From positions 992,001-1,056,000 of the forward strand of contig NZ_JARVCO010000010.1 in the NCBI RefSeq assembly GCF_034531395.1: 64,000 bases of DNA, written 5' to 3'. The position numbers and the translations under genes are program-made. Under the pieces are notes generated by a model that saw only the letters and a program-made list of their open reading frames with translations, ran no database searches and was not told the DNA's origin. Every line of letters starts with the position of its first letter. The first letter of the stretch is position 1. This document shows, one piece after another, positions 31,206 to 50,517 of the stretch. Source of the stretch: Pontiella agarivorans (lineage in GTDB: Bacteria; Verrucomicrobiota; Kiritimatiellia; Kiritimatiellales; Pontiellaceae).

Positions 31206-32020
31206 CTTCTATTTTCGGATTCAGCAGAATACTTCTGATGTTGCACGCGGATTTTCCGGCCACTGGAATAAGGGCCGTTCAAGGGCATTCAGGCGGGGAC
31301 ACAGGCGGTTTATGAGGCCGGATATATGTGCCCGCAACCGTTTGCGTCCTTCCCGGTCCAGGAGCAGGGCGATTTTTTTGATGTTCTGGGCGCAAGCCGC
31401 CATGAGGCATTGTTTCTGAACCTTATCTATTCCCCGGAAGCGCGCATAGCGGTGGTCGTTGACGGCTTCTTTATGCTTTTCCCAGATGTGGCGGGTGATC
31501 ACTTACTGATGGGCGCGGCTGGTGGTGCATTCCTTCAGCCGGGGGCAGTTCGCGCAGATGGAGGATCGGATTTATATTCGTGGTGACCTTCGCAGTTGGT
31601 GGTGGAGTAGCTAAGTACCTTCCCTTCGGGGCAGAGGTAGCCATCGTAATGTTCGTCGTAGGTGAAGTCGCGCTTTTTGAGTATGCCGGGTTTGCCCATG
31701 GGGCGTTTACAGGGCATGACGCCGTAGATGCGGCGCTCAGAAAGTCCTTTGCAGATGGCGGCGGTGTTGTAGCCGGAATCCACGCCGAGGGCATCGAGTT
31801 GTTCGGTATAGGATCTGACCGATTCGCTCACCTGCTTTTTCGTGAATTTGATTTTATTGGCATTGGCCTTCAGATGAGTTGAATCGGTGTAGAGTGTTTT
31901 GCCATCGATGAGCTTATGCTTTATCGCCTGCGTGACAATGTCGTCGAATATTTCCTGATCGATGCCGGTCACCTGAGTTGATAACTGCCGTATTCTTCAG
32001 GGTTGATCGGGAACACATTA
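31206..32020 (-). pseudogene. Decayed IS1182-like DDE transposase
   Basis: Minus-strand fragments align in order with an IS1182-type transposase: VFPINPEEYGSYQ, IFDDIVTQAIKHKLIDGKTL, TDSTHLKANANK (first catalytic Asp), GVDSGYNTAAICKGLSERRI (second Asp), CPEGKVLSY, a frameshift near 31565, ICANCPRLKECTTS, a stop codon near 31505, then ITRHIWEKHKEAVNDHR directly joined to YARFRGIDKVQ. The normal segment between the last two, which carries the catalytic Glu (VERSFADAK type), is missing. The N-terminal part is also absent. Confidence 0.8.
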
Positions 32021-32599: not shown

Positions 32600-34180
32600 A
32601 TGAAACTGGGTATGTTATTGGGTGTGCTGGTTGGTCTGGGAGGACTGTCGGGGGTGATGGCGGCGGAACCGCTGTGGAAAGTGGAAACGTGGGAGGCGGG
32701 CCGACAGCTGGTCTGGGCGAATCCCGGAACGAGCGGTGAAATCAGCGAGGCCTCCAATTGGAAAGAAAACGGTAAAACCGCGACTGCACCGCCGGACCGG
32801 AATACGGATATTCTGCTGCCCGGGGCTGAAAAATATTATGTGGTGAAGGGTTCGCGTAATAATCAGGTCCGTCATGTGGTGATTGAGAAAAATGCCGAGC
32901 TGAAGGGAAAGCACCGCAACGAGCTGGAGATCTGGGGCAATGTGGATGTGAAGGAAGACGGCTGGATTCATTTCATTTCAATCCGCGGCGATAAGGATAC
33001 CTATTTTAATATCGAGGAGTCGGTTTTTCCGGGCGACGGCCGGGTATATCGGCACTGTTCAAAAAATCCGCCGAAGGAAAAATGCTGTAATTCACAGATT
33101 TCCCACAAGTTTCAGATTTGCAAAATCGGCACCAAATCAGTGGAGTTTCTGAGTAATGTGGGCGTGAGCGACGAGGTGATGCTGCAGCACGGGAAATGTA
33201 TTATCAGCGGCGATTTCCGGTTCAGCGGGGCAACCAATAAGGGCGCGTTCGAGGTGTATGACGGCGGAATTCTTGAAATTCAATCAGGGGGCCGTCTTGC
33301 TCCGTTTATCAACGATAACCGAAAAGCGGTTTATAATGTGAATATCTATCGCAACGGTGTGCTGCAGGCGGGTTCTCCGGAGCGGCCGCTGACGGAGGAT
33401 GCGTATCTGTGTCTTGGTTTTGCCGTGAATGACAAGCCCGGGCGTTCCGGGCTGTATGCCGCGCTGGGTTCGATGATTCGGGTCTATTCCGAAAATCCGA
33501 AAAAGGCGAGGCTGGTGGTGACCTCGATTACATCGGTGGATGATTTTACCGATGGACAGGGCCGTGAAGTGGGTCGCGCCAGCGAGCGGGCGGACGATGA
33601 AAAAGGGGTGATGCTGCAACTGGCTGGGGATGTGCTGCTCGACGGTGTGCATTTCGACTATCTTGCAGAAGACGGCATCGGCCTGTTTGATGAAGATGTC
33701 GCAAAAACCTGGAAAAATGTGACGTTCGGCAAAAAGTGTGCTTCTTCCTCCCCCCGGAATCTGATTGCGGAAATGAAGGCCGATCCCAATTCATATTATC
33801 ACGGGCGCGGTGACCAGCGGTCGGAATACGGGCTCACGATGAAGGCGATGGCCTCCATGAATCAGCTGCTCGGTGAATATGAACCCTTTCAGCTGAAAAC
33901 GACGCCGGAAAATACAACGATCCGCAAAGTGGGCAAGGGCAATAACCAGATTGAAACCCCGGTGGCGGTTATTTTTGATGAGCCGATCGAGGTTGAAGTG
34001 AAAACCAGAGTCCCGGGGGCAAAAATCCGGTATACGACGGATGGCACAGAACCGACGGCGAAATCGCCGGCCTACACCCGGCCGATTAAATTGGCGAAAA
34101 CAACGAAGCTGACGGTCAAGGCCTATAAAAAAGGCGTGGGCTTCAGTCCGACTTACACCACGACCTATGTCATTCAATAG
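32600..34180 (+). CDS. Secreted beta-solenoid-like protein with chitobiase/hexosaminidase C-terminal domain
   Basis: The product has 526 residues from ATG 32600; the frame is open further upstream but without a ribosome site. A signal peptide (about 1-21, ending VMAA) precedes a long beta-rich part with repeated short strands (VVIEKNAELKGKHRNELEIW, FEVYDGGILEIQSGGRLAP) as in surface beta-helices. The last 60 residues are a CHB_HEX_C-type domain (IRYTTDGTEPTAKSPAYTRP, then KAYKKGVGFSPTY). This domain usually decorates secreted or surface proteins. First gene of an operon whose second gene starts 12 bases later. Confidence 0.75.
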   Translation: MKLGMLLGVLVGLGGLSGVMAAEPLWKVETWEAGRQLVWANPGTSGEISEASNWKENGKTATAPPDRNTDILLPGAEKYYVVKGSRNNQVRHVVIEKNAELKGKHRNELEIWGNVDVKEDGWIHFISIRGDKDTYFNIEESVFPGDGRVYRHCSKNPPKEKCCNSQISHKFQICKIGTKSVEFLSNVGVSDEVMLQHGKCIISGDFRFSGATNKGAFEVYDGGILEIQSGGRLAPFINDNRKAVYNVNIYRNGVLQAGSPERPLTEDAYLCLGFAVNDKPGRSGLYAALGSMIRVYSENPKKARLVVTSITSVDDFTDGQGREVGRASERADDEKGVMLQLAGDVLLDGVHFDYLAEDGIGLFDEDVAKTWKNVTFGKKCASSSPRNLIAEMKADPNSYYHGRGDQRSEYGLTMKAMASMNQLLGEYEPFQLKTTPENTTIRKVGKGNNQIETPVAVIFDEPIEVEVKTRVPGAKIRYTTDGTEPTAKSPAYTRPIKLAKTTKLTVKAYKKGVGFSPTYTTTYVIQ

Positions 34181-34192
34181 GAATTTTACAGC

Positions 34193-36163
34193 ATGAAATG
34201 TAAACGTATTTTTATATGCGGTCTGGCCGCATTACTCAGCACCGGTGCGGTGCAGGCGGTAATCAACCCGGCGCTGCAGCCGGATGTCTACTTTACGAAA
34301 TATGATAATGTGCTGGTTCTGCGGCTCGATGAAATTGATGCCGATGCCGGGGTGCTGTCATGCGCTGTGGTGGAGGTGCTCAAAGGGGCGTATCAGCCGC
34401 AAGAATCGATCGAAATCACGTTCGCCGGTGTGATGAAAAGTCAAGTGGCTGAGCGGGTTTCGGCCGGGGTTTTTGAAGTCGGGAAAGCATTTCCGGTTTT
34501 TGCGGGAAAGCCGAGCCGCCGGAAATCCAAACGTCAGGTCCGTATGTATTTCGATGAATTTTTTGTCGGTGAAGTGCTGGAACCCGGCCGGCTTCAGATC
34601 GGGGTTTCTGACGGATCGGAAAAGGATTCCGAAGGCCGTGCGGTCAATACGCTGGCCGGCATTTACTGCGGCATGACCGGGGAGCTGATCCAAATGCTGA
34701 AAGATATGGCGGCGGGGTCGGATTATTATCCGCGCAAAGCTTACGTGAAATTTAAACCCGACATGCTGATCAGTCAGCTCCAGGGATCGGTTGAAGGGGC
34801 GGCTATGTTTGATCTGAACGGAGACGGCATGGAAGATCTTGTGGCGTGTTCGCCGATGGGCGACCGTGTGTTTCTGCAGGTGGAACCGATGCAGTTTTCC
34901 GATGCCACTGAAAAGCTGGGCATCACGTCGGCTTCCGTCAGCTGTTCCGCGGCCGATGTTGATTGTGACGGGCTCGCCGATCTGATGCTGGGCTCCACCA
35001 TTTACAGAGGTGTTTTCGATCAGACCTATCGGCTGGAAAAGACGGATTGGCTGAACGTGGAAAATGCGGCCGCCCTGAAAAGTGCATCCTTTGTTGAGCT
35101 CAACGGGGATGGGTTTCCGGACGTGGTGATCAGTTATGAAGGCGGGGGATTGCAGGCCCTGCTGAATCCGGGCGGCGCCGGCGAATTTGCTGCGCTTTCC
35201 GCCGGACTTCCAGACACTGGAAACGGCTATATCGTGGCCGGCGACTGGAACGGTGATGCCCGCACGGATCTGTTCTATTCCGAAGGACGGGGCCACTTTC
35301 TGGTACAGGATGAAAACGGCGGGTTCCAATCGTTGGAACATGATATTGATTTTTCCTTCCGTACCGGCGTGGATGAAGTCGGAAAAACCGGCGCCGGTAT
35401 TTTTATGCCGACGTATCGGCAGGATCGGATGGATCTGGTGGTGCCGATTGAAAAGGACTGGCTGATTATCGAAAACCGCGATGGTGTTCCAACGGATACT
35501 ACCCGGTACGGTAACGAAATCAGTGAGGGGTCCGATTATCATCTGGCGACCGTTTATGCCGATCTCAATGTCGATGGCTACATGGATATCTACACGGTCT
35601 GCGATCAGCGGAAAGAAAACCGGTATATCATCAATCGGGGATACGGGTCCTATATGCATGCTAAAGTGCATGTGGATGAAAAACCGCTTTTCAAAGGGCC
35701 GGCCCATGGTTCGGGCGGGCGTTCGCTTGCGGTGGGCGATGTCAATGATGACGGCGCGCCGGACCTGCTGATCGGTAACGAGTCGGGGCAGGTTTTTCTG
35801 ATTATCAACGATACGCTGTCGATGCGGGTGGAAGGCGAGCTGCTGACAAAAGATGAACAGCGTCTGTTGCATGTGGCGCTCTGCTCGGTCCGGGTACTCG
35901 GACCGAAAGGGGTTGTCGGGGCCAAGGTTCGTCTGCTGGATGAATCCGGAAATGCCGTCTGCCGAAAAGATCTGGGCGGTAATACGGCCACGGGCTGCAG
36001 CAGTCCGGATACGGTCTGTTTTGCCGTGCGCCGGCCGGGAAAATATACGGTGAATGTTGAATACGCTGACGGGCATGTGCGCAATGAGGATGTGGAGCTG
36101 ATCCAAACTGAACGCGCATCGATTGTGGTTGAACGTGGGGATGCTGATGATGCTGCCTGGTGA
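34193..36163 (+). CDS. Exported FG-GAP (VCBS/integrin-type) repeat protein
   Basis: The product has 656 residues. A signal peptide (about 1-23) leads to an N-terminal domain ([20 protein letters not shown] onward, about 35-190), then at least six FG-GAP-type calcium loops: [50 protein letters not shown] and [10 protein letters not shown]. These form a beta-propeller as in integrin alpha chains. A small C-terminal beta domain follows ([20 protein letters not shown]). Its stop overlaps the start of the PQQ-type gene, so the two are coupled. No enzymatic motif seen. Confidence 0.82.
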
Positions 36164-37769
36164 TGTTGCTGTTGTTCCGATTTTTGTAAATGCAGGCGCG
36201 GCGCTGTTGCCGGCTATGGCGGCGGGAATCGCCACGTTTTTTGCCCTGCTGTTCAAGCCCCGGGCGCTGCTGAAAGCGTGTAAGGAAAAACCGCTGATTC
36301 CGCTGGGGGTTCTGCTGGTGATCGGCGGAGTTTGGGCTGCGGTAAAATTCCGGCCGTCTCATGGCGGTGCGCCTGTTGCCGCAGAAACAACCCGCTCCCC
36401 TGCACAGACCGGATCCGTGTATATCGACTGGACGGAAGTGGCGCTCCAAAGCATTAAAGCCAGAGCCCGCGGTGAACTGAAATCGGTTCAGCCCCGGCCG
36501 TCGGTTGCATTGCAAACGGCCGGTGTTGAAGAACCGGTGATGTTCCGGGGCGGCTCGGCCCGCCTCGGGGCAAGGGGGGCTGCGCCGGAGGGCGAGCTGA
36601 AACTGGTGTGGGATTATTATCCGAGCTGGGTGGATGATGACGGCTCGGTGGAAGTGGTCGATTCCGCCATGATGCTTTCGAGTCCTGCCGTTTTCGGTGA
36701 CCGGATTTATTCGGCTTCGTGTGAGCTCGATCCGCCGGACAGTTACGGCATTGTCTTTTGTGTGAATGCGGGTTCCGGTGAGACCATCTGGTCGATTGAT
36801 CAGGTGGAAGGCGAAGAGCTGATGGGTTTTTTCAGTTCGCCTGCGGTTACGGCCGATGGAAAATATGTGCTGATCGGCCAGGGCCTGCACCCCGACACCA
36901 ACTGTCGGTTGATCTGCATCGATGCGGAAAAGGGGGAGGTGCACTGGACTGTGCAGAGTGAACTGCATATTGAAAGTTCGCCGGCCATTGAAAACGGGGT
37001 GGTTTACGTCGGAGCCGGTGCCATTGAAGATCCGGCTACGCATAAACCGGTCAGCCACACCGGCTATGTGATGGCCATCCGTATTGAAGACGGTAAAGAA
37101 CTTTGGCGGCACGATGTGGCCGACCCGGAAAGTTCTCCGATTGTGAAAGACGGCGTGGTGTACATCGGCAGTGGATTTAACGGAAAAGCGGTTGTGGCCC
37201 TGCGGGTGGAGGAAGAGCTTGAGGGGCAGCCGCGCGAAATCTGGCGAACCGAAACGCCGTATCCGATTACAGGGGCGGTAACGCTGGTGGACGATATCGT
37301 CATCGTCGGCGGCGGTAACGGTGATTTTGTGTTCCGCGATCCCGATCCCGCCGGTGTGGTGATGGCTCTCGATGCGAAAACCGGAAAAGTCAGATGGTCG
37401 ACCGCGATGCCTGATGCGGTACTCGGTGCTGTGGCAGCCGGAAAATATTTGATTGCCCCTGTGGCAGCCGGTCGTGTGATGGCCCTCGATCCGTCGACGG
37501 GCAATACGGTCTGGTCAACGGCCGTCAGCGGTCAGGCTCCGGTGCTGGCCGGCGCGTCGATTGCCGGCGATGTGGTTTATGCGGTCAGTCACGATGGCTA
37601 TCTGGCCACCCTATCCCTTGAGACCGGGGAGGTGCTGGATAAAATCTACATCAACGACCGAACCCGTCCGGGGGAGCAGGGGCTTTCAATCAGTTCGCCG
37701 ATGATTCAGGACGGCCGGATTTATGTGGGCAGTGAAACCGGGGGACTTCGCTGTTATGAAGGATCGTAG
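36141..37769 (+). CDS. Membrane-anchored PQQ-like beta-propeller protein
   Basis: The product has about 542 residues; ATG 36141 is chosen, with 36147 and 36150 as alternatives. Two N-terminal transmembrane helices (about 8-35 and 44-62) are joined by a short basic loop ([12 protein letters not shown]). The rest is periplasmic: repeated blades [57 protein letters not shown] and [13 protein letters not shown], as in BamB and PQQ dehydrogenases. No PQQ-binding disulfide pair is evident, so it is more likely a scaffold or sensor than an enzyme. It overlaps the dikinase gene by 14 bases. Confidence 0.82.
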
Positions 37770-40700
37770 TGCATTCGTTCTCCCGCTTTTTCAGTCCACC
37801 GATGTGGAGCAGGTCGGCGGAAAGGCGGTCAATCTGGCCAAACTGATGCAGGCCGGTCTGCCGGTTCCCGATGGTTTTGTGATCACTGCCGATGCGTTTC
37901 GTACCTCGGCCGACGGCCTCGTATCGAGCGCATTGGCTGATGAAATCCGGACCGCTCTGGCCGGTTTGAACGGGCGGCGTTTTGCGGTGCGCTCTTCAGC
38001 CACGGCCGAGGATATGGCCGGGGCCTCCATGGCCGGTCAGTATGACACCTTTTTGAATGTGCAAACGGCCGAAGAGGTCATTGCCGCTGTGGAGAAGTGC
38101 TGGAGCAGTGTGCGCTCCTCCCGCACGGAAGTTTATCTTTCGGAGTACGGCATTGATTTGAATGAAGTGGCCATGGCCGTGGTGGTGCAGCAGCAGGTTT
38201 CGGCCGAGGTTGCGGGGGTGCTTTTCACTGTTGATCCGCAGAATGGGTCGCGCGAAAACATGCTGATTGAGGCGACGTGGGGGCTGGGTGAAATGCTGGT
38301 TTCCGGCGAGGTGCAGCCCGATGTCATCTGTGTTTCCGCGGATGCTGATCGAGTGCTGTCATACGATGTTGCCGAAAAAAAATATGCGATCTATCCCGGC
38401 GGTTCGGGGATAGAAGCTGTTCCTGAAGCATTGCGGAAACAGGCCTGCCTGAAGTTTGAACAGATCGCGCGACTGCGGGAACTCGGATGCCGCGCGGAAG
38501 CGCATTTCGGCGCACCGCAGGATATTGAGTGGGCTGTGGAAGAGGGCGTCGTGCTGATGCTGCAGGCGCGGCCGATTACCACGCTGGCTGAAACGGATTG
38601 CTATAACCGGCTGCTGAAAGAAACCCGGGATTATCTTTTCCAGCGTCTGGAAAACGGCGGCGGTTTCTGGGTGCGTCATAATCTGGGGGAAACGCTGCCG
38701 CATCCGACACCGTTGAGCTGGAGCCTGATTTCGCATTTTATGTCGGGTCGCGGCGGATTTGGAACCATGCACGAACGGCTCGGTTTCTCGCCGGGTGCCG
38801 CAGTGCGGAATCGCAGTTTCCTGGACCGCATCGGCGGTGAAATTTATATGGATTGCTCGCTGATGACGGAGATGTTTTCGGACAACTATCCGTTTGCCTA
38901 TGACCCGGAGCTGCTGCGCCGTGATCCCGATGCCGCCCAGAATCCGCCAACCCTCCCGAAAGGCCGCCTGCGGGCCATCGGCGATGCGGCAAAGCTGGCG
39001 CGGAAAGCCGCTTCAAAAATTGAAACACGGACCGAAACACTCGATCGGGAGTTTGATGAGGACTATGTGCCGAAGGTGCTGGCGTGGTCGGAAAAACAGG
39101 AGGCGCTGAATCTTCCGGAGTTTGGAAATGAAGAGTTGATTCAGCTGTGGCGCGAACAGACCGAAACGGTGCTGGATGATTTCGGGGCAATGGCGTTTCT
39201 GCCGAGTATGGTTGAAGCGGTGGCGATGGAGGAACTGCGTCAGATTCTCAACGAGGAGCTCTGGAATGAAGAGCCCGACGAAGTGATTTCCACGCTTTGC
39301 GTCGGTACGGTTCCGGACCGGACGATGGCCGGAAATCTGGATCTGAAACGGCTCGATACTGAAACGTGGATTGAGCAATACGGTTTCCGCGCGCCGGCCG
39401 AATTCGACCTGGCATCGCCGCGCTGGCGCGAGCGTCCGGATGAGGTGGTGCAGCTGGCCGCACAGCTGGATGATATCGATCTGGAGCAGGTGCATCGTGA
39501 ACGCACGCAGGCGGCGGAAGAATGCATGAACCGTTTGCACCGCGAGTTGGAACCTGATGTTTTTAATAAAATAAAAACGGCTTCAGATGTGGTTCAGCGC
39601 TACCTGCGCTTTCGCGAAGACGGTAAATTCTACCTCATGCGGGCCTACAGTGTTTTGCGTTTAACCGCACTCGAATTCGGGCGTCGGCTGCAGCTGGGGG
39701 ACGATATCTTTTTCCTCCAGCCGACTGAAATTTTCCAGGCATTGGAAACCGGTTTTGTCCCGCTGGATCAGGTTGCGAAGCGTAAACTGGAATATGCCGT
39801 GGAACAGCGGATTCAGGTGCCGCATGTTATCGAGGCCGATGATATTCCACAGTTTGGAACTGCACCGGTTCGAGCCGATGGACCGACTCTGGATGCGCAT
39901 TCGGTATCGAGTGGTCTGGTTGAAGGATCTGTTGAAATTGTGCACTCTCCCGAGGCCGGACATCATTTTCCCGCGGGGGCGGTTCTGGTCTGTCCGTCGA
40001 CCGATCCTTCGTGGACTCCGCTGTTCGCAAAAGCGGGCGGTCTGGTGCTGGAACGCGGGGGAGCGCTTTCGCACGGGGCGGTGGTTGCTCGTGAAATGGG
40101 CCTGCCGGCGGTGGTGCTGGACGGTGCCACGGAATTGCTGGAGCAGGGCGAGTTGATTACGGTGGATGCCCAGCGCGGGTGTATTTACCGCGCAGGTGCG
40201 GAGCCGATTGAGCATACGGATGTTCCGCGGAGCGAAACTCCGCCGCCGGCGGGAAGCAAAGAGGCCGCCGCAAACCGGATGGGACTGGTGGCTGCGATTC
40301 TGTGGGGGGGGCTGCTGGCTCTGGTTTTCCTTCTTCCGCCGCGGCTGCTTCACGATCCGTTGTTTGGAATTCTCGATGCGCTTCTCTGGCCGCTGGTTCG
40401 CGGCGCGGGCATGGTCGGAACGGTGGCGGTGGTTGCCGGGGTGTTCGGGCTGCTTCCAATCCTTGGACAAAAACTACTGACGGACAATGATCGTCTGTTT
40501 GTGGCAAAGCGACGGTCGGGCCGCTTGCGTAAAGCCGCCGCCGGACTGCCGGCCGACAGTGAACGGCGCAAAAAAATGGAAGCGTTGGCCGCACCGGTTA
40601 CAACGCGGATTCTGAAAGCATCGATGGTGCCGCTGGCGCTGATTCTCGGTCCGATGATTCTGGTTTTCATGTGGTTTCCCGCTCGGGTGGACCCGGCGTC

Positions 40701-41292
40701 GTGGAATGCGTCTCCGGGGCGTATGGTGAGTATCGTGGCGGAAGTGGATGGCGAATGTGCGGAGCCGGTTTCGTTGGCGGTGGCGGAGCCATTGACACTT
40801 GATTCAGAGTCGGTGCAGACGCTGCCGCCGATTCGTGCAGAACTCGAAATGATCCGCGTCGGCTGGCAGCAGGGCAGTGCCATGCCGGAGCTGCCCTGGG
40901 AGGTGCAGGCGGCGGGCGAGCAGGTGCGGAAAACCATGCTGGCCAGTTTAAATGCCTATCTCAGAAACGGGGTGCCGCCGCAGAAACTCACGTGGCTGAT
41001 TCAAGTGCCGGAAACGGCGGAGGGCGCGTTCCCGGTTTCGTTGCGGATCGGTGATGTTGCTGAAACGGAGTTTAACCTCGTATTCGGGAAAAGTGTTCCG
41101 CCGGAACCCTCTGCCTGGCTGGAGGTTTCGGAGCAGGTGGTTTCTGTGACGGTGAATTATCCGCGGGCGCTGCAGAAGGCGTCTTTCTTTACTCTTCCGG
41201 GCACGAAGAAGGATCTCGGTTGGCTGGGCGTCTATCTGCTGATTTATCTTCCGGTTATGTTTGGATCGAAGTTTCTGCTGCGGGTCCCCTGA
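37756..41292 (+). CDS. Dikinase (rifampicin phosphotransferase/PEP synthase-like) fused to a DUF106/EMC3-like membrane module
   Basis: The product has 1178 residues from ATG 37756, inside the end of the preceding gene. Residues about 1-300 are the ATP-binding domain ([48 protein letters not shown]). About 305-690 is a middle domain of the rifampicin-phosphotransferase kind ([19 protein letters not shown]). About 720-820 is the swivelling phospho-His domain with His773 in [20 protein letters not shown]. The PEP/pyruvate barrel of true PEP synthase is absent. From residue 842 on there are two hydrophobic helices, a basic helix ([14 protein letters not shown]), another helix ([16 protein letters not shown]), about 170 soluble residues and a last helix ([20 protein letters not shown]). 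That tail resembles archaeal DUF106/EMC3 proteins of the Oxa1/YidC superfamily. Dikinases of this type transfer a phosphate from ATP to an acceptor, giving AMP; the acceptor here is unknown. The fusion is surprising and the membrane assignment is less certain than the kinase part. Confidence 0.82.
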
Positions 41293-41416
41293 TTCTTCTC
41301 CTTCGGAGAGGGAAGTGGCGCAAATGTATACTCCTTCTGCGGGGCAGGACGTATTCCGGTCTGTTCATTGCTTATACCTTGGATGTTGAATTTCAACGAT
41401 TGAATGAGGTGTGGCG

Positions 41417-44398
41417 ATGAAACGTGTGTGGATGATGTGTGCGGGCCTGGTGCTGACTGCGGGTGCGGAGAATATGGATTTGCGGGGGCTGTGGACTTTT
41501 GACGACGGCACCGGAACGCAGATTACCGATGCATCGGGCAACGGTAATATCGGTTTTGCGCAGGGCGTAAAGTGGGATAAGGGCGTAAACAATGCCGGTC
41601 TGCTGTTTAATTCGGGCGGATTTGTGAATGCCGGTAACGATTCCAGCCTGAGTCCGGCGGAGGGTCTTACGGTCGAAGCCTGGGTGAAAATGTGGAATCT
41701 GCCTTACAAAAACTATCCGGAAATTATTACGAAAAAAGGGTCCTATGCATTCCGGTTTGCGCCGGGCGGTAAACTTTCGATTGAACTGATGGTCGACGGG
41801 CAGGCGGTTGAACTGACCTCCCGCCGGACTGAGTGGCCGAACAGTGTGTGGACGCATGTGGCGGCGACGTATGACGGTGAAACGCTTGCGCTGTATACCG
41901 ACGGCGTGAAAGATGCGGAAAAGAAGGTTTCGGGAAAAATCGATAAAAGCCGCTCGAGCCTGGTGATCGGTTCGACGGATGGGAAATCGCGCGTGCCCGG
42001 TCGTATGGATGAGGTCCGCGTGGCGGGTCGCGGATGGAGTGCGCAGGAAGTTTATGATTCCTATCACGAAGGTGCGTATCAGGTGGCGCGTGAGGACAGC
42101 ACATTTCCTCAGTTTTTTGAGAAGAAAAACCGGCGTGTTCCTGAGATGGCGGTTCCCGGATTTATCTGGATCGATGCCGAGGATTTTTCCGATTACGGCG
42201 GCTGGAGCATGGATACGCAGTTTGTGCCGCAGATGGGTTCCCCGTATCTGCTGGCCGCCGGTATCGGAAATCCGGTGAAGGATGCGGTGACCACATTGAC
42301 GGTGCCGGAAGCCGGAACCTACCGGATCTGGGTGCGGTCGAAAAACTGGCTGAAGGAGCATGCACCGGGGACTTTCAAGGTTGCTGTAAATGGAAAGACG
42401 CTGGAAAAAACATTCGGAGCCGAGGCGAGCGGAAAGTGGGTCTGGGAAGATGGCGGAACGGTGAAGCTGGAGAAAGGCGATGCCGCACTGGCCCTGCATG
42501 ACCTGACCGGGTTTTACGGCCGTTGCGATGCGATCGTGCTGACTTCCGATGAAAAATATACGCCGCCGGCGGAACTGCAGGCCTATAAAAACGAACGCGC
42601 CCGACTGACCGGTCAGTCGCTGGAGGCAACATTCAAAGGGGACTACGATGTGATTGTGGTTGGTGCAGGCGTGGCCGGAATCAATGCCGCTATTTCATCG
42701 GCACGAACAGGGGCAAAAACTGCGCTGATTCAGGATCGCCCAATGATCGGCGGTAACAACAGCCTGGAGCTGGGGGTGGTGGTTTCCGGACCGGCCAACC
42801 ATGGCAAACCGAATATGCGCGAGAGCGGACTGAATGAGGAAATCGGGCGGGTTCGGGCTTATAATTATCACGGAAAATGGAGCCGCGGGGCAGAGCTGGT
42901 GGCGGCGGCCGAAACCAACTTAACGATTTTTCTGAATACCCATGTCAATGAAGTGGAGATGGATGGAAGTACAATTAAGGCGGTGAAGGCGTTTAATATG
43001 GTGGATGGTTCGCGCACCCGCTATACCGCGAAACAGTTCATCGATTGCACAGGCGATGGCTGGCTGGGGTATTATGCCGGAGCTGAATATCGTCATGGGC
43101 GTGAGGCGCGGTCGGAATTCAACGAAAGTCACGCTCCGGAACAGGCCGACCATATTACGATGAGCGGCTGTCTGATGACCGGGCATACGCTGTCGTACAA
43201 CACGAAGAAGGAAAAAACGCCGCAGCCGTATTCCGGTTCGGAGTGGCTGTGGGATCTGCGCCCGAATGGAAAAAATCTGGAGGCGCGCAACGGATTTGAA
43301 GGCAGCCACACCTATGGACGCTGGTGGCATGAAAATGTAGGTGAAACGGATGACCTGTGGGATCCGGAAAATACGCGCGACGAGCTGATTGTTCTGAACC
43401 TGAGTTACTGGAACTGGATTAAGAACTATTCTTCGGTAAAGGATGAGGCGGCGAACTATCGTCTGACGATTATCCCGATCGGCAATGCCAAGCGGGAAAC
43501 GCGCCGTTTGGTGGGGGATCATATTCTGACGCAGGACGATGTGCTTTCTGCGCGGAAGTTTGAGGATGCGGTGGCCACCGGCGGCTGGTCGCTGGATGTT
43601 CACCATCCAAAGGGAATCTGGTCGGAAGAGGGGCCGTTTGATTTCAATACGCAGGCTCCGGCCAATCCGCTGCCATTCCGCATTCTGTATTCCAGAAATA
43701 TTAACAATCTGCTGTTTGCCGGGCGCCAGGTTTCGGCCACCCATGTGGCTTTGGGCAATGTGCGCGTTCAGGGCACTACGGGCGTGCTGGGTCAGGCGGT
43801 GGGCACCGCTGCGGCGATGTGTACAGCGAAGGGGATCAATCCGCGTGAATTATACCGAAGTTATATTAAGGAGCTGCAGCAACAGCTGATTAAGGATGAC
43901 CAGTATATTATCGGTCTGAAAAATGAAGATCCGGCTGATCTGGCACGTCATGCAACGGTCTCCGCTTCCAGTTTCATGGCCGGCGGTGAGCCCGGACAGG
44001 TGATCAACGGAATGAGCCGGATTGTCGGGAAAAAGAAAAACATGTGGATGTCTGATCCGGCGCAGCCGATGCCGCAGTGGCTGGAACTGGATTTTGGGCA
44101 GGCCAAAAGAATGAATGCCATTTATGTGACGCTGGATACTGATTTAAATGACAAGCGGCATGCATCCTGGGAATTTAAGGAGAGTGAACGTTTTGTGCCG
44201 GAAAGTATTCGCGAGTATTCGGTGAAGGTGCTGGTGAATGGACGCTGGCAGACGGTCGCTGAGGTGGAAGATAATTTTCAGCGTCGTCGGATTCACCGTT
44301 TCCCGTCGCTGGAGGTTTCCAAAGTCCGGATTCATGTGCAGCGGACCAACGGCGATAAATCGGCCCGGATCTTTGAGGTGCGGGCGTATAACGAATAG
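41417..44398 (+). CDS. Secreted multidomain FAD-dependent oxidoreductase with LamG and discoidin-like domains
   Basis: The product has 993 residues from ATG 41417. A signal peptide (about 1-18) precedes a LamG/concanavalin-like domain ([20 protein letters not shown], then AWVKMWNL and [17 protein letters not shown], about 22-215). Next is a carbohydrate-binding-like region (about 240-395), then an FAD_oxidored domain with the Rossmann motif [20 protein letters not shown], the flavin segment [14 protein letters not shown] and [18 protein letters not shown]-terminal F5/8-type (discoidin-like) domain follows ([20 protein letters not shown]). Related proteins are frequent in polysaccharide-degrading PVC bacteria and probably oxidise sugars or remove substituents. 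A terminator follows. Confidence 0.85.
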
Positions 44399-44421
44399 TC
44401 ACATGATACAGAATCTGTGAG

Positions 44422-44456
44422 AAGCCTCCGCCTGTACCGGGCGGCGGCTTTTTTTT
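44422..44456 (+). terminator. Rho-independent terminator
   Basis: AAGCC-T-CCGCC pairs with GGCGG-C-GGCTT (one mismatch), then TTTTTT. It ends the FAD-oxidoreductase transcript. Confidence 0.88.
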
Positions 44457-44561
44457 CGTATACCTGAAAGGAACGATATTTTTGATCGGACAGACGATTT
44501 CTTATTGCCAGTTGCACCTTGTCTGTTTACGTTCTCAGTTCTCAGGAAACAGGAGATTCAA

Positions 44562-45893
44562 ATGAAAATACGATACCCCGCTCTCGTTCTGGCCGCTGTT
44601 GCCGGAGGTGCCATGGCGCAGAATCCGCTGGTCACCCACATGTATACGGCGGACCCGACCGCCCGCGTTTTCAATGATACGCTGTATATTTATCCTTCGA
44701 GTGATCAGGTTCCGCCGGAGGGAAGAAAGGCCAACGATTTCTGTATGCCGGGGTATCGCATGTTCCGTCTCGATGGCGGGGCGACGTGGACGGATGTCGG
44801 TCCGGTGCTGGATCAGAATGAGGTGCCGTGGGGTAAAAAAAACTCATTTGCGATGTGGGCACCGGACTGCATCGAAAAGGATGGGAAATATTATTATTAT
44901 TTTCCGGCGGCTCCGCTGGATGGTTCGGCTTTCCGCCGTATCGGGGTGGGGGTGTCCGATTCTCCGGAAGGCCCGTTTGAATGGGAGCCGCACTATATCG
45001 AGGGGGTGAAGGGGATCGATCCGGGGCTGTTCGTCGATGATGATAACAGGGCCTATCTCTATTTCGGCGGCGGACATGAACTGTTTGTGGTCCCGCTGAA
45101 AGACAACATGAAGGAAATCGCCGCGCCGCCGAAAAAGATCGAGCATCTGCCGACAGGCTATAAGGAAGCCTCTTTTATGTTTAAGCGGAACGGCATTTAC
45201 TACATGACCTTTGCGCATACCTTCCCGCAGGAGGGGTATACGATCGGTTATGCCACATCGGATTCACCGATGGGGCCGTTTGTATACGGCGGAAAAATCA
45301 TGGACAACATCGGTAACGGCACCAACCATCATTCCATCACCAAATACAAGGGACAGTGGATTCTGTTCTATCATTGGTGGGATATCAGCGGATTCAATAA
45401 ACTGCGCTCCATGCGGGCGGATTATCTGCAGTTTCATAAAGACGGCAGTATTCTGAAGGTGAAGCCGACCCTTCGGGGTATTGGTACGCCGGGGCTCGGT
45501 GAGCTGATTCAGGTTGATCGGTATAATGAAATCAACGGCTGCGAAACGGCTTTCCTTGAAAAGGACGGTTATCGCGGCTGGATGGTGACCGAAACGAAAC
45601 CGAACAGCCATGTCCGTTTTGATCGCGTAAACTTTACCGGTGCGAAAAAAATCCAGGCCCGGATCGCCTGCGGGCAGACCTTCGGGAAATTCGAAATCCG
45701 GCAGAATCATGTGTGGGGGAAACTGCTGGCGGAATTTCCGGTGCATCATACCGGCGGATGGAACCGCTGGGAAACCATCGAGGCGGAAATCAAAGAGCCG
45801 ATTGACGGGGTGCATAATCTGGTGGTGGTGTTCAAGCCGGATTGGGGCGGCACCAAGCTGGTTAATCTCGACTGGCTGAAGCTCACTGAATAG
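44562..45893 (+). CDS. Secreted glycoside hydrolase family 43 with CBM6-like domain
   Basis: The product has 443 residues from ATG 44562 with AGGAG upstream. A signal peptide (about 1-19, ending AMA) precedes a five-bladed GH43 propeller. The three catalytic acids can be placed: general base Asp31 (TADPTARVF), pKa-modulating Asp153 (KGIDPGLFVDDD) and general acid Glu202 (GYKEASFMF). The C-terminal 130 residues (FDRVNFTGAKKIQARIA, then GWNRWETIEAEI) look like a CBM6. Likely acts on arabinan, xylan or arabinogalactan side chains in the periplasm or outside; the exact substrate cannot be told. Confidence 0.9.
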   Translation: MKIRYPALVLAAVAGGAMAQNPLVTHMYTADPTARVFNDTLYIYPSSDQVPPEGRKANDFCMPGYRMFRLDGGATWTDVGPVLDQNEVPWGKKNSFAMWAPDCIEKDGKYYYYFPAAPLDGSAFRRIGVGVSDSPEGPFEWEPHYIEGVKGIDPGLFVDDDNRAYLYFGGGHELFVVPLKDNMKEIAAPPKKIEHLPTGYKEASFMFKRNGIYYMTFAHTFPQEGYTIGYATSDSPMGPFVYGGKIMDNIGNGTNHHSITKYKGQWILFYHWWDISGFNKLRSMRADYLQFHKDGSILKVKPTLRGIGTPGLGELIQVDRYNEINGCETAFLEKDGYRGWMVTETKPNSHVRFDRVNFTGAKKIQARIACGQTFGKFEIRQNHVWGKLLAEFPVHHTGGWNRWETIEAEIKEPIDGVHNLVVVFKPDWGGTKLVNLDWLKLTE

Positions 45894-45991: not shown

Positions 45992-47296
45992 ATGATGAAA
46001 ATTTTCCCGGTCATTGGAGCGCTGCTGCTGGTTTTTTCGGTTCAGGCGGCTACGTTGCGGATTGAAGGTGAAGAGGCGTGGCTGAAGTCGGAGGGTACGC
46101 CGCTTTCAAAAATTCTCTTTCTGTTTGAACAGCGGGGGGCCGAAGTGCTGATTGATCCCGCGCTGGAACTCGGGCGGGTAACCGGTGAGTGGGAGGGGGC
46201 GAAGGTGGAGCGCCTGATTGCCCAGCTCGTCAGCCCGAACAGTTATTCGGTGCAGTGGAAACGCGTAAACAGTCCGCTGGGCGAATTTTATCAGGTTTCC
46301 TCGATTCGTGTATTCGGAGACCGGGCTTCGGCCGCAAAACGTCTTTCCGAACCCGGTCGTGTGCTGGATGTGGTGGAGGGCACCAACGGTGTGAAGTATG
46401 TGCGCGGCGAAATTCTGGTGGGATTCAGGGAGGGGTCAACCGTTAAAGAGCTCAGCCAGCTGCTGAGGATGCTGAACGGGACCGTCGTGGAAGTGATTAA
46501 CCCGCCGGGTATTTATCGGATTCGATTGAATGATGATCTCAGTGTTGAAGAAGCGCTGGCCATTGCGGCAGCTCTGGAAGGGGTTGATGCGGCGGAGCCG
46601 AATCTGGCCTATTCGAATGCGGCTATGCCCACCGTTCCCATCTCCGGAACGCACGCCGGCATTAATCTGGGGCTGGCTCCCGGCGAAACCGCCATTGCCG
46701 TATTCGACTCCGGTCTCGATCCGGTGTATGCCGATATGGACTTTATCCGCGGTTCCTGGGATGCGCTGAATCCGGGCGGGGAAATGGATGATCCGACCGG
46801 GCATGGGACGCTGGTTTCGCTCATTGCATCCGGCGCCATTACGCCGCAGGGCGAAGAAACCGGTAACACGGGGGCGCCCGTGCTGGCGGTGAAGGTATTT
46901 GATGAAAACGGCATGACTTCGTCGGATGTGCTCATGAGCGCCATCAACTATGCTCTCGCTTCAGATGTTGATGTGATCAACCTCAGTTTCGGAACCTATG
47001 AAGACGTCGGGTTTCTGGAAAATGCGGTGGAGTATGCCGCATCGCAGGGGATTGCGATTTTTGTGGCCAGCGGCAATGACGGGCTGGATGTGGCGGTCAA
47101 TCCGGCGGCGAACCCGGTCACGGTTTCGGTCGCGGCTACGGACGGGAGCGGTCACGTCGCGGGGTATTCCAACACGGCTGCCGATACCTATGCTTCCGGC
47201 ACGGTGGAGTTTGACGGGAAAGTGTACTACGGCACCTCATTCGCCTCGCCGCGCACGGCATACGAATATGCGACGCGTGCAGGGGAAGGTCAGTAA
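45992..47296 (+). CDS. Exported subtilisin-like (S8) peptidase
   Basis: The product has 434 residues. A signal peptide (about 1-19) and an N-terminal prodomain region with a fervidolysin-type segment (YVRGEILVGFREG, VVEVINPPGIYRIRL) precede the catalytic domain. The triad is Asp239 (IAVFDSGLD), His271 (TGHGTLVS) and Ser416 (GTSFASPRTA), with the oxyanion Asn in ASGNDG. The protein stops only 18 residues after the catalytic Ser, shorter than usual, so the end may be truncated. It converges with the cyclopropane synthase gene, overlapping by 7 bases. Start at 45992 or 45995. Confidence 0.85.
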   Translation: MMKIFPVIGALLLVFSVQAATLRIEGEEAWLKSEGTPLSKILFLFEQRGAEVLIDPALELGRVTGEWEGAKVERLIAQLVSPNSYSVQWKRVNSPLGEFYQVSSIRVFGDRASAAKRLSEPGRVLDVVEGTNGVKYVRGEILVGFREGSTVKELSQLLRMLNGTVVEVINPPGIYRIRLNDDLSVEEALAIAAALEGVDAAEPNLAYSNAAMPTVPISGTHAGINLGLAPGETAIAVFDSGLDPVYADMDFIRGSWDALNPGGEMDDPTGHGTLVSLIASGAITPQGEETGNTGAPVLAVKVFDENGMTSSDVLMSAINYALASDVDVINLSFGTYEDVGFLENAVEYAASQGIAIFVASGNDGLDVAVNPAANPVTVSVAATDGSGHVAGYSNTAADTYASGTVEFDGKVYYGTSFASPRTAYEYATRAGEGQ

Positions 47297-48516
47297 ATCT
47301 CTTCCGCTGGACGAGCCAGCGTCAGGTGGAGGGTATTGGTGAAACGGGTCTGGAAACCGGCTTCGCAGTAGCAGAGGTAATAGAGCCATTTCCGCTGGAA
47401 GGCTTCGTCGAATCCGAGATCCCGCAATTCCTGTTTCCGGTCTTCAAAGGCATAGCGCCAGCGGCGCAGCGTTTCGGCATAATCGATTCCGATATTTGAA
47501 AGCTGTTCGACGGTAAACCGCGAGGATCGGGTCATGGCCTTATTCAGCTCCGTCAGTGAAGGCAGCATGCCGCCGGGAAAAATATGTTTTTGAATCCAGT
47601 CAGGGTTGGCGCGGTAGGCATCGTAGCGCTGATCCGGAATGGTGATGACCTGCAGCACGACGCGACCGTTCGGTTTTAAAAGCTGATCGCAGGTTTTGAA
47701 AAAGGTGCCGTAATAGGCGTGTCCCACTGCTTCCAGCATTTCAATGGAAACGATCCGGTCAAACTGTCCGTCAAGATCGCGGTAGTCCTGCAGCTGAATG
47801 TTCACCTGATTCTCCAGTCCTTCCGAGTGTACACGGTTCCGGGCAAAATTGTACTGCTCTTCGGAAAGGGTTATGCCGGTGACGCGGCAGCCGGTACGTT
47901 TGGCCGCTTCGATGGCAAAACCGCCCCAGCCGCAGCCGATTTCCAGGATGTGATGTTCCGGTCGGATGGCAGCGTGTTCAATCAGCGTGTCCATTTTATT
48001 CAATTGGGCCGCTGCCAGGGAGTCCTCCGGATTCCGGAAAATCGCGCAGGAATACATCATGGTTTCGGGATCGAGGAACAGGCGGTAGAAGGCGTTGCCC
48101 AGATCATAATGCGCGTGAATATTCCGGCGGCTGCCTTCGCGCGTATTTTTATTTTTCGCATGTCCGACCATGTGAACAACACGTTTAGCGATGGCCGTGG
48201 TCAGCCCGCTTTTTTTCAGGGCGTCGATGTTGTGGATAAAAAGTTCCAGAACCCCTGTGAGATCATTGCTGTCCCAATCGCCGTCGGACCACGCTTCGCC
48301 AAGCCCGATATTGCCGCCGAGAACGAGACGGCTGAAAAAACGATGGCGAATCACACGAATCCGTTTTTCCGGAGTCCGGTCGCCGTAATGATGCTCGGTA
48401 CCGTCCGGCCGTTCGATGACCAAATGGCCCCGGTTGATATTTTTCAGGTGTCCGTCGATCAGGTTAAAGCATCGCTGTTCCAGAGCGGTGAGGGGGGCTT
48501 TTTCCAATGTATTCAT
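47290..48516 (-). CDS. cfa: Cyclopropane-fatty-acyl-phospholipid synthase
   Basis: The product has 408 residues. It transfers a methylene group from S-adenosylmethionine to unsaturated acyl chains of membrane phospholipids. The SAM site is ILEIGCGWGGFAIEAA. Family motifs include HAHYDLGNAFY-like NIHAHYDLGNAFYRLFLD, MMYSCAIF, EMLEAVGHAYYGTFF, WIQKHIFPGG and RRWRYAFE. Last gene of the sigma-factor-led operon, one base after the DUF1365 gene. The same locus holds a second, more divergent member, so the two probably have different acyl targets or chemistry. Confidence 0.92.
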   Translation of the reverse strand: MNTLEKAPLTALEQRCFNLIDGHLKNINRGHLVIERPDGTEHHYGDRTPEKRIRVIRHRFFSRLVLGGNIGLGEAWSDGDWDSNDLTGVLELFIHNIDALKKSGLTTAIAKRVVHMVGHAKNKNTREGSRRNIHAHYDLGNAFYRLFLDPETMMYSCAIFRNPEDSLAAAQLNKMDTLIEHAAIRPEHHILEIGCGWGGFAIEAAKRTGCRVTGITLSEEQYNFARNRVHSEGLENQVNIQLQDYRDLDGQFDRIVSIEMLEAVGHAYYGTFFKTCDQLLKPNGRVVLQVITIPDQRYDAYRANPDWIQKHIFPGGMLPSLTELNKAMTRSSRFTVEQLSNIGIDYAETLRRWRYAFEDRKQELRDLGFDEAFQRKWLYYLCYCEAGFQTRFTNTLHLTLARPAEEIY

Positions 48517-48517
48517 C

Positions 48518-49267
48518 TTATGCAGCTCCTTTGATGGTGTTCGGATCTGCGGGTGCGGGCTTACGGAAAACCTGCAGTTTCTTTCTGTAGTGGAGAATGG
48601 CGGCCTGGACGAGGATGCGCGGCATGGTGAGGGCGGCGGTGAAGGGATGGGGCAGTACCGTTTTCCAGAGGTTGGAAGTCGTTAGTTCCCGGCCGGTCCC
48701 CCACAGGGCGGCATCCAGAACCGTTTGCTCATTGCGGATCAGCCGGATACCGATGCGCAGCTGCTCGCCGGGCTCGGAAAAGGTGAATTCATAGTGGCCG
48801 TCCATGGGGTTGAAGGGCGAGACGTGAAAGCGTTTGCTGTGGCGGCATTTTACGGGAAAGGTGCCGTCGGATTTCATGATGTAGAGATGCCGCTCTTTAA
48901 AGGTGTTGTTGACCTCCGCCACCATACAGACCGGCCGGTCGTCGGCATTCAGACAATAGTAGAAACTGACCGGGTTGAACACCCGGGCCATGAAGCGGGC
49001 AACGGTCACGAGCACAATGCGCTCGACCTTGGATACGTCGATATATTCGGCAAGACGTTCCCGGAAACCGCCGGCTCCGGTGAGATAGTCGGAATCCCGG
49101 AGACTGACCGGTTTCCAGTGGTTGTACCCGAAGCCGCGAACCTGTCGGTTCAGTGCCGGAAGTTCACTCAGGTCAATGGCGTAGAAATAGAATGGAAATG
49201 TAAATTCATGACGTACCGGAGAGCGCCGCGCGTGCCTCATTTTTCCGCTGTAGATCCGGCTCTTCAC
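48518..49267 (-). CDS. DUF1365 family protein
   Basis: The product has 249 residues. It matches the DUF1365 type: MKSRIYSGKMRHARRSPVRH, YYCLNADDRPVCMVAEVNNT and FNPMDGHYEFTF. The family has no proven activity but is repeatedly found between an FAD amine-oxidase-like gene and a CFA synthase, as here. Its start overlaps the FAD gene stop by four bases. Confidence 0.9.
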   Translation of the reverse strand: MKSRIYSGKMRHARRSPVRHEFTFPFYFYAIDLSELPALNRQVRGFGYNHWKPVSLRDSDYLTGAGGFRERLAEYIDVSKVERIVLVTVARFMARVFNPVSFYYCLNADDRPVCMVAEVNNTFKERHLYIMKSDGTFPVKCRHSKRFHVSPFNPMDGHYEFTFSEPGEQLRIGIRLIRNEQTVLDAALWGTGRELTTSNLWKTVLPHPFTAALTMPRILVQAAILHYRKKLQVFRKPAPADPNTIKGAA

Positions 49268-50517
49268 AGTTCCATTCCCATGGCGTTGGCGATTTCGACG
49301 GCTGAACGCACGGCATCTTCATGAAACCCGTTGCCCATATAACTTCCCGCAAACCAGGTGTGGTTGCTGCCGTTGAGGGCTTTAAGCGCATTGCGGCTTT
49401 TCAGGGCGTCGCGGGTGTACATGGGATGCGTGTAATTAAACTCGGCAATAATGCCTTGAGGTTCTTCGGGCAGGTTCAGCGAAACAAAATACGGGTTTTC
49501 GGTTTCCAATCCCTGGAGGCGGTTCATGTCGTAGGTCAGGCAGGTACGCTGGTTTTCCAAACGTTGGAAATTCCATGAGCTCCAGACGTTGCGCAGCGGC
49601 GGCATGACGGAGGGGTCGGTATGCAGCAGGGTGCGGCTGACCGTGTACTGCCAGCAGCCGAGCAGGGCCTGTTCTTCGGCGGAAGGATCGCGCAGCAGTT
49701 TAATCGCATCATCGGCATGCGTGGCGATAATAACCTCGTCGAACGACTCCGCTTCAATCCCGCCGAAAAAAATCTGAACTCCGTGATCTCTCCGTATACC
49801 GGAGATGTTGGTTCCGGTCCGGATTTCCACCTGATTCCACTCCTGTTTCATTTTGTCTATGTAGGATGAACTGCCGCCGACGACGGTGCGCCATTGCGGA
49901 CGGTCATTGAGGGTGAGGAGTCCGTGGTTATGAAAAAACTGCAGGAAACTCTGAGCCGGAAACTGAAGCATTTCTTCGCAGGGGGTGGACCAGATGGCCG
50001 AGCCCATGGGAATGATGTGATGGTCAATAAACGCCTGTCCGAATCCGTTCCGGTTCAGGTAATCCCCGAAGGTTTCATCGGCCAGTGCGGGGTGAGTGCG
50101 GTCCGCTTCGGCCGTTTTAAAAAAGCGCAGGGTATCTTTCACCATCCGCAGGAACATCGGAGAAACCAGATTCCGGCGTTGGGCAAAGAGGCCGTTGAGG
50201 CCGGTGCCGCAATACTGCAGACCGGAAGGGCGGTCGTAGTAGCCGAAAGTCATATCGCTATCGCGCAGCTCAACATCGAGTTTGGCCAGCAGTTTGGAAA
50301 AGAGGGGGTAGTTGCGGTGGTTCATTACAATGAAACCGGTGTCGATCGGCGTTCCGGCATCGGGGCCGCCGGAAATCGTGACCGTGTTGGTATGGCCGCC
50401 GAGCCGGTTTTTTTCTTCAATCAGCGTCACCCGGTGTTTCCGCTGCAGAATATGTGCCGCCGTAAGCCCTGCAACGCCCGAGCCGATTACGGCTATTTTT
50501 TTCACTCCGTTATTCAT
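49264..50517 (-). CDS. FAD-dependent amine-oxidase-like protein
   Basis: The product has 417 residues. The N-terminal dinucleotide site is IAVIGSGVAGLTAAHIL followed by LIEEKNRLGGHTNTV. The C-terminus has the second FAD contact TWFAGSYMGNGFHEDAV. Similar to the protoporphyrinogen/amine-oxidase-type proteins of CFA/DUF1365 clusters, assumed to modify fatty acyl chains. Overlaps its neighbours by four bases on both sides. A TTCCA-N5-TGGAA copy (49555-49569) lies inside. Confidence 0.9.
   Translation of the reverse strand: MNNGVKKIAVIGSGVAGLTAAHILQRKHRVTLIEEKNRLGGHTNTVTISGGPDAGTPIDTGFIVMNHRNYPLFSKLLAKLDVELRDSDMTFGYYDRPSGLQYCGTGLNGLFAQRRNLVSPMFLRMVKDTLRFFKTAEADRTHPALADETFGDYLNRNGFGQAFIDHHIIPMGSAIWSTPCEEMLQFPAQSFLQFFHNHGLLTLNDRPQWRTVVGGSSSYIDKMKQEWNQVEIRTGTNISGIRRDHGVQIFFGGIEAESFDEVIIATHADDAIKLLRDPSAEEQALLGCWQYTVSRTLLHTDPSVMPPLRNVWSSWNFQRLENQRTCLTYDMNRLQGLETENPYFVSLNLPEEPQGIIAEFNYTHPMYTRDALKSRNALKALNGSNHTWFAGSYMGNGFHEDAVRSAVEIANAMGMEL

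Follow-up and report, generated by a model that had tools for sequence, protein, structure and literature searches.

A predicted rifampin-phosphotransferase-type dikinase joined to an EMC3/DUF106-like membrane module in a conserved operon of Pontiella agarivorans and its phylum

We analysed a stretch of 64,000 nucleotides from Pontiella agarivorans (GCF_034531395.1, contig NZ_JARVCO010000010.1, positions 992,001 to 1,056,000), hereafter the window, in which a single gene appears to join a dikinase of the rifampin phosphotransferase (RPH) type to a membrane module resembling the archaeal DUF106 and eukaryotic EMC3 proteins. An earlier note on this DNA, made from its letters and open reading frames, had proposed such a fusion, and the frame on which it relied is present and uninterrupted (Table 1). 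Each part comes from a known superfamily, and their combination appears to be undescribed. The gene follows one for a beta-propeller protein, with which it forms an operon that recurs across the phylum, either with kinase and membrane module fused, as here, or with the two on separate genes (split form).

The Pfam scan of the fusion protein gave PPDK_N (1.8e-77) and PEP-utilizers (7.7e-23) and no pyruvate-binding TIM barrel, in agreement with the rifampicin-phosphotransferase-type dikinase lacking that barrel which the note had described. The domains follow the RPH order of ATP-grasp, acceptor domain and C-terminal swivelling His domain. The nearest solved proteins (E 1.8e-80) are 5fbs and 5hv1, deposited as 'phosphoenolpyruvate synthase', which we take to be the RPH of L. 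monocytogenes. Their numbering agrees with that of PMC4844700. Lys23, Arg79, Thr98, Glu258, Gln270 and Arg272 of the fusion protein align with RPH Lys22, Arg117, Thr136, Glu297, Gln309 and Arg311, and Arg620, Glu621 and His773 with Arg666, Glu667 and His825, so that the phosphohistidine falls on the residue the note had pointed to. RPH no longer inactivates rifampin once Lys22, Arg117, Thr136, Arg666 or Glu667 is mutated; its phosphate is borne by His825, and Glu297 is not required (PMC4844700). Missing ATP-binding residues had been named beforehand as evidence that would tell against a kinase; none is missing, and the equivalents of Lys22, Arg117, Glu297, Gln309, Arg311, Arg666, Glu667 and His825 do not vary among the 21 intact kinases of the family, with the Thr136 equivalent kept in 19 (Ser in locus L022, Ala in L074).

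The cytosolic part thus reads as a complete RPH-type dikinase, which should turn ATP, acceptor-OH and H2O into AMP, Pi and acceptor-phosphate by way of phospho-His773. The C-terminal half of its acceptor domain has the rifampin-binding domain of RPH as sole significant PDB match (7.8e-17). Since the N-terminal half does not align with RPH and bears a conserved motif of its own (WVxHNxGETLPxPTPLTW), rifampin is not the expected substrate. The score against the NCBIfam equivalog RIF_Ptrans_rph was 354 bits, below its threshold of 999, and by sequence the fusion kinase is an RPH in build that lies outside the rifampin phosphotransferase equivalog. A weak TIGR01417 match indicates that its His domain is homologous to that of enzyme I of the phosphotransferase system (PTS).

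The C-terminal stretch of about 340 residues is hydrophobic and contains four transmembrane (TM) segments, the middle two flanking a charged helical stretch; this bears out its earlier description as helical and membrane-type. Searched alone, the window tail gave no Pfam match, PF01956 (EMC3_TMCO1) included, and phmmer against the PDB, up to E 10, returned a single match, MJ0480 of M. jannaschii (0.029), colinear and with further pieces at TM3. With a profile of 11 tails, the best PDB match was again MJ0480, at 6.4e-10, over TM1, the hairpin and TM2; TM3 is colinear with it but weak taken alone. MJ0480 was also the top PDB match for the profiles of two further families described below, standing at 6.4e-10, 2.8e-5 and 3.3e-4 for the three. 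The DUF106/EMC3 likeness seen in the earlier note is therefore beyond chance. PF01956 was matched by 3 of the 11 fused tails (best 8.8e-4) and, at E <= 0.01, by 8 of the 11 split proteins (best 1.3e-8), and those of L072 and L048 exceeded the Pfam cut-off (35.3 and 30.1 bits versus 27.1). The matches in L031 and L032 are real genes adjoining a kinase, and fused and split tails are homologous across both core and loop domain (E 1.7e-12). On these sequence profiles, from which the Oxa1 fold is predicted, the tail probably belongs with archaeal DUF106/EMC3.

Hydropathy of the 11 fused tails and two split proteins predicts a core of three TM helices, in which TM1 is followed by a cytosolic hairpin and helices H4 and H5 are connected without one that crosses the membrane. 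The predicted three-TM core, the charged hairpin and the absence of an H4-H5 TM hairpin are shared with archaeal DUF106 (MJ0480) and eukaryotic EMC3/TMCO1; unlike these, the window-type tail is bacterial, holds an immunoglobulin (Ig)-like domain in the H4-H5 loop, is fused to a kinase and, when fused, has an extra N-terminal TM helix (TM0). The TM hairpin specific to bacterial YidC (PF02096) is absent from the tail, a two-sequence YidC profile gave no meaningful hhalign match to it (E 0.26), and an ordinary YidC gene is found elsewhere in the genome. Structure comparison has placed YidC and DUF106/EMC3 in one superfamily (PMC8675477). The chain would run from the kinase inside through TM0 and TM1 to the hairpin inside, then through TM2 to a periplasmic domain and through TM3 to a C-terminus inside, the two sides being a prediction. 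At the cytosolic end of TM1 the split proteins have an invariant Arg, versus an invariant Gln in the fused tails. Two AlphaFold models of the tail, each from a two-row alignment (with the homologue of L006), had a confidence (pLDDT) of 56 and 62 and gave the periplasmic loop domain as an Ig-like beta-sandwich with a pLDDT of about 78. Foldseek with these models found no match at E <= 0.001, and Get1, at Z 7.3 from one low-confidence model, is within noise.

The note's claim that the genetic partners are surface propeller proteins was confirmed by profile annotation of the neighbours. In all 22 loci of the phylum, to which split loci had been added with a profile from two standalone EMC3-like proteins and each of which was annotated with profiles, the order is a two-TM PQQ-type propeller, the dikinase and the EMC3-like part, the propeller being cut by the contig end in L048 and weakly matched in L074. 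Ten loci are fused, eleven are split and one is fused without catalytic domains (L024). In the window the propeller and fusion genes overlap by 14 bp. The propeller's N-terminal TM hairpin, a segment with no Pfam match, is conserved between fused and split forms, and most split loci encode a longer propeller protein of about 860-930 amino acids; the two that were tested contain several PQQ_2 stretches. On the basis of gene linkage plus fusion, we argue that propeller, kinase and EMC3-like module are physically associated. An FG-GAP propeller gene adjoins the operon in the window, L017, L018, L019, L029, L030 and the split loci L049, L072, L073 and L075; as it is adjacent in some loci only, we regard it as optional. 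The proposal that the PQQ-type propeller is EMC1 was rejected, since the EMC1 match (18 bits) stays below its cut-off and PQQ/BamB is the main match; a defence-system role was likewise dropped, PADLOC giving no match to the operon proteins.

Fusions were found in 8 of 388 genomes of the phylum, the window's own included, together with one degraded relative, and two more loci came from a search among close relatives, so that the full-length gene is present in nine other genomes of the phylum. The distribution is patchy, at about 2% of the 388 genomes and even within one genus. A contig scan beyond this genome set, with a single tail as query, returned one Pontiellaceae locus; viral contigs held no tail relative, and plasmid records matched the C-terminal half of the acceptor domain only, in ordinary RPH/PEP-synthase-like genes. 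An 836-amino-acid frame (L025) was discarded as a chance match. In a tree of acceptor and His domains, fused and split forms lie on opposite sides of one branch (100/100), and three genomes (G015, G154 and G312) hold both. In G342 there is a second split system (L074, 10067-12964) with GSK for GGK, the Ala at RPH Thr136 mentioned above and a shortened propeller gene, and it may be decaying.

We propose, tentatively and with a little less than even confidence, a complex in the membrane in which the dikinase, on the cytosolic side, transfers phosphate to a hydroxyl acceptor. The EMC3-like module would either let this acceptor pass to the kinase or present it in bound form. Propeller, kinase and EMC3-like core would form one complex, the propeller hairpin sitting beside the core as EMC6 and GET2 sit beside EMC3 and GET1. 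Outside, the propeller and the Ig-like domain might recognise or hold a substrate or a partner, and the EMC3-like groove could admit a lipid or another amphipathic hydroxyl compound to the acceptor domain at the cytosolic face, where it would be phosphorylated. A lipophilic alcohol would be our preferred acceptor, by analogy, because the hydroxyl compounds that known RPH-type dikinases phosphorylate are hydrophobic, and because insertases of the superfamily scramble lipids. Lipid scrambling has been reported as general for protein insertases (PMC10491306). We infer complex formation and orientation as much as groove use and the lipophilic acceptor.

Several observations weigh against this proposal. 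The conserved positive groove residue of the YidC type is not seen in the fused form, and AlphaFold gave no confident model of the TM core, so that only the periplasmic domain is usable. In addition, L024 (4469-6934) suggests that phosphotransfer may be dispensable for some family member: it has lost the ATP-grasp and His domains together with the Arg620-Glu621 pair and retains the propeller, the acceptor domain and the tail. The gene begins directly past the propeller stop and the join looks clean, but the genome is a draft and an assembly fault is possible; if L024 is real, its membrane part either serves some purpose other than phosphotransfer or relies on a kinase from elsewhere. In the PDB search with the tail profile, a designed coiled-coil protein came next (3.3e-4), so part of the profile's signal could be coiled-coil. 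This match, the poorly modelled core and the lack of a Pfam match for the window tail could also mean that the EMC3 likeness is a chance match of TM and coiled-coil sequence and the tail an unrelated membrane domain. We consider this very improbable, since the profiles of all three families have MJ0480 as their top match, in an alignment that covers TM1, hairpin and TM2 and has TM3 colinear though weak by itself, and since standalone relatives exceed the Pfam cut-off.

The EMC3-like core and the propeller might instead act in protein biogenesis as an EMC-like insertase or chaperone, with clients such as the co-encoded FG-GAP protein, and the dikinase might modify a client or regulate the complex. 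EMC3 is capable of insertase activity (PMC8887752), EMC1 has two lumenal propellers (PMC7785296), the partner of about 870 amino acids in split operons has several PQQ_2 stretches besides its weak EMC1_N match (0.0013), and L024 does without phosphotransfer. We nevertheless find this role unlikely: the kinase active site is strictly conserved (21 of 21), a general YidC is already encoded, and the distribution is patchy. Moreover, RPH-type dikinases are, to our knowledge, known for small molecules and not for proteins. Group translocation would make the system a kind of ATP-driven PTS analogue: propeller and Ig-like domain would catch a periplasmic hydroxyl compound, which would enter by way of the EMC3-like module and be retained in the cell by its phosphorylation there. 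This would suit a system that has components on either face of the membrane and links them to a kinase with a His domain homologous to the one in enzyme I. However, we know of no Oxa1-superfamily protein that transports small molecules, and no dedicated catabolic gene conserved beside the operon was seen among the examined loci, which makes this rather improbable even though scavenging dikinases of low KM exist (HpeHI, PMC12167813). We give equally little weight to the idea that the tail is an anchor and scaffold only, and that the kinase inactivates a membrane-soluble drug or handles an ordinary metabolite near the membrane. Its closest characterised architecture is indeed that of RPH, a resistance enzyme, and patchy presence within one genus and an apparent transposase remnant upstream would fit such a role, but the conserved charged hairpin, the TM motifs, the periplasmic domain and the existence of the tail as a gene of its own exceed the needs of a plain anchor, and the tail is always accompanied by a propeller.

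Among known systems, RPH (5fbs/5hv1) and PRK06241-type dikinases share with the fusion the domain order, the essential residues and the lack of a pyruvate barrel, whereas RPH has neither membrane module nor propeller partner. HpeHI-like two-component dikinases likewise use RPH-type chemistry and have their domains distributed over separate genes (PMC12167813); HpeHI, however, divides ATP-grasp from swivel and acceptor, while in the window system the membrane module is the part that is split or fused. In the endoplasmic reticulum membrane complex (EMC), too, an EMC3-type core is found together with beta-sandwich parts and propellers located on the opposite side of the membrane (PMC7785296), but we draw an analogy only: here a kinase is present, the propeller is of the generic PQQ/BamB type, and no EMC2, EMC5 or EMC6 homologue was seen, no search having been aimed at other EMC subunits. 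The literature consulted describes DUF106/EMC3-type Oxa1 proteins of archaea and eukaryotes and the YidC of bacteria, and one evolutionary study made its archaeal set from PF01956 by removing non-archaeal sequences named EMC3 and TMCO1 (PMC8675477). In the open-access literature DUF106 is treated as a family of archaea with a relationship to eukaryotic EMC3, and no report of a dikinase joined to it was found there. Bacterial EMC3-type members in conserved operons bear on the age and capabilities of that Oxa1 branch; a dikinase fused to such a core offers a way to ask if Oxa1-type grooves serve a small-molecule or lipid enzyme and not protein insertion, and the pairing with an outside-facing propeller points to an undescribed membrane machine.

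A third EMC3-like family, first met in G350 (L076, 9839-10680) and also present in L089-L095, has no dikinase alongside. It aligns with the two other EMC3-like families (2.8e-10 and 2.3e-18), and MJ0480 is the only PDB match of its profile (3.3e-4); four members scanned against Pfam gave no match. In most of its loci, two type I phosphodiesterase-family genes (Pfam about 1e-30 in the one pair tested) precede the EMC3-like gene; the product of the first has a TM segment rich in glycine (YIGPGAG), and that of the second an apparent export signal. EMC3-like proteins of bacteria thus turn up once more next to enzymes of phosphoryl transfer, which we take as mildly favouring a role with a phosphate ester or a lipid. 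It is conceivable, although we hold it doubtful, that EMC3-like Oxa1 proteins in this phylum form a family of archaeal/eukaryotic type whose members are not general insertases but the membrane core of phosphoryl-transfer machines, paired with a dikinase and a propeller in one operon type and with phosphodiesterase-family enzymes in the other. Such machines would couple phosphorylation to the transmembrane handling of a lipid or another compound at the inner membrane.

Table 1. Features of the operon and of the fusion gene (positions in the window)
Feature	Position	Strand	Basis or remark
Fusion gene, RPH-type dikinase and EMC3/DUF106-like membrane module	37756..41292	+	1178 aa, uninterrupted frame
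ATP-grasp (PPDK_N) domain, residues 1-282	37756..38601	+	Pfam, RPH alignment
Acceptor (middle) domain, residues 283-735	38602..39960	+	PDB match, RPH alignment
Swivelling phosphohistidine domain, residues 738-808 (His773 codon 40072-40074)	39967..40179	+	Pfam, RPH alignment
TM0, residues 842-860; in fused tails, absent from split ones examined	40279..40335	+	Hydropathy
TM1 (Oxa1 H1), residues 885-908	40408..40479	+	Hydropathy, profile alignment
Charged cytosolic helical hairpin (Oxa1 H2/H3), residues 909-955	40480..40620	+	MJ0480 alignment, model
TM2 (Oxa1 H4), residues 956-974	40621..40677	+	Hydropathy, profile alignment
Periplasmic domain in TM2-TM3 loop, residues 986-1146, predicted Ig-like beta-sandwich with helical insert	40711..41193	+	AlphaFold models
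TM3 (Oxa1 H5), residues 1153-1175, GWLGVYLL motif matching MJ0480 ALGWLGWYIL	41212..41280	+	Alignment, hydropathy
Partner gene, N-terminal TM hairpin and periplasmic PQQ/BamB-type beta-propeller	36123..37769	+	Longest reading; ATG 36141-36150 also possible
Optional partner, exported FG-GAP (integrin-type) propeller	34193..36163	+	Profile annotation
Optional partner, exported protein with CHB_HEX_C/Fn3-associated C-terminus	32600..34180	+	Profile annotation

An upstream ATG at 37723 would give the fusion gene a longer frame; the start at 37756 agrees with the N-terminus conserved among homologues. Upstream of the operon, 31535-31972 holds the apparent transposase fragment, recognised by eye from its translation. 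Downstream (41411-45893) lie an FAD oxidoreductase with laminin-G and F5/8 domains and then a GH43 protein with CBM6; these neighbours resemble those of L017 and differ from those of L029. Farther on, the minus strand (47290-50517) carries a cluster that by eye resembles a cyclopropane-fatty-acid synthase, a DUF1365-like protein and an FAD amine oxidase.

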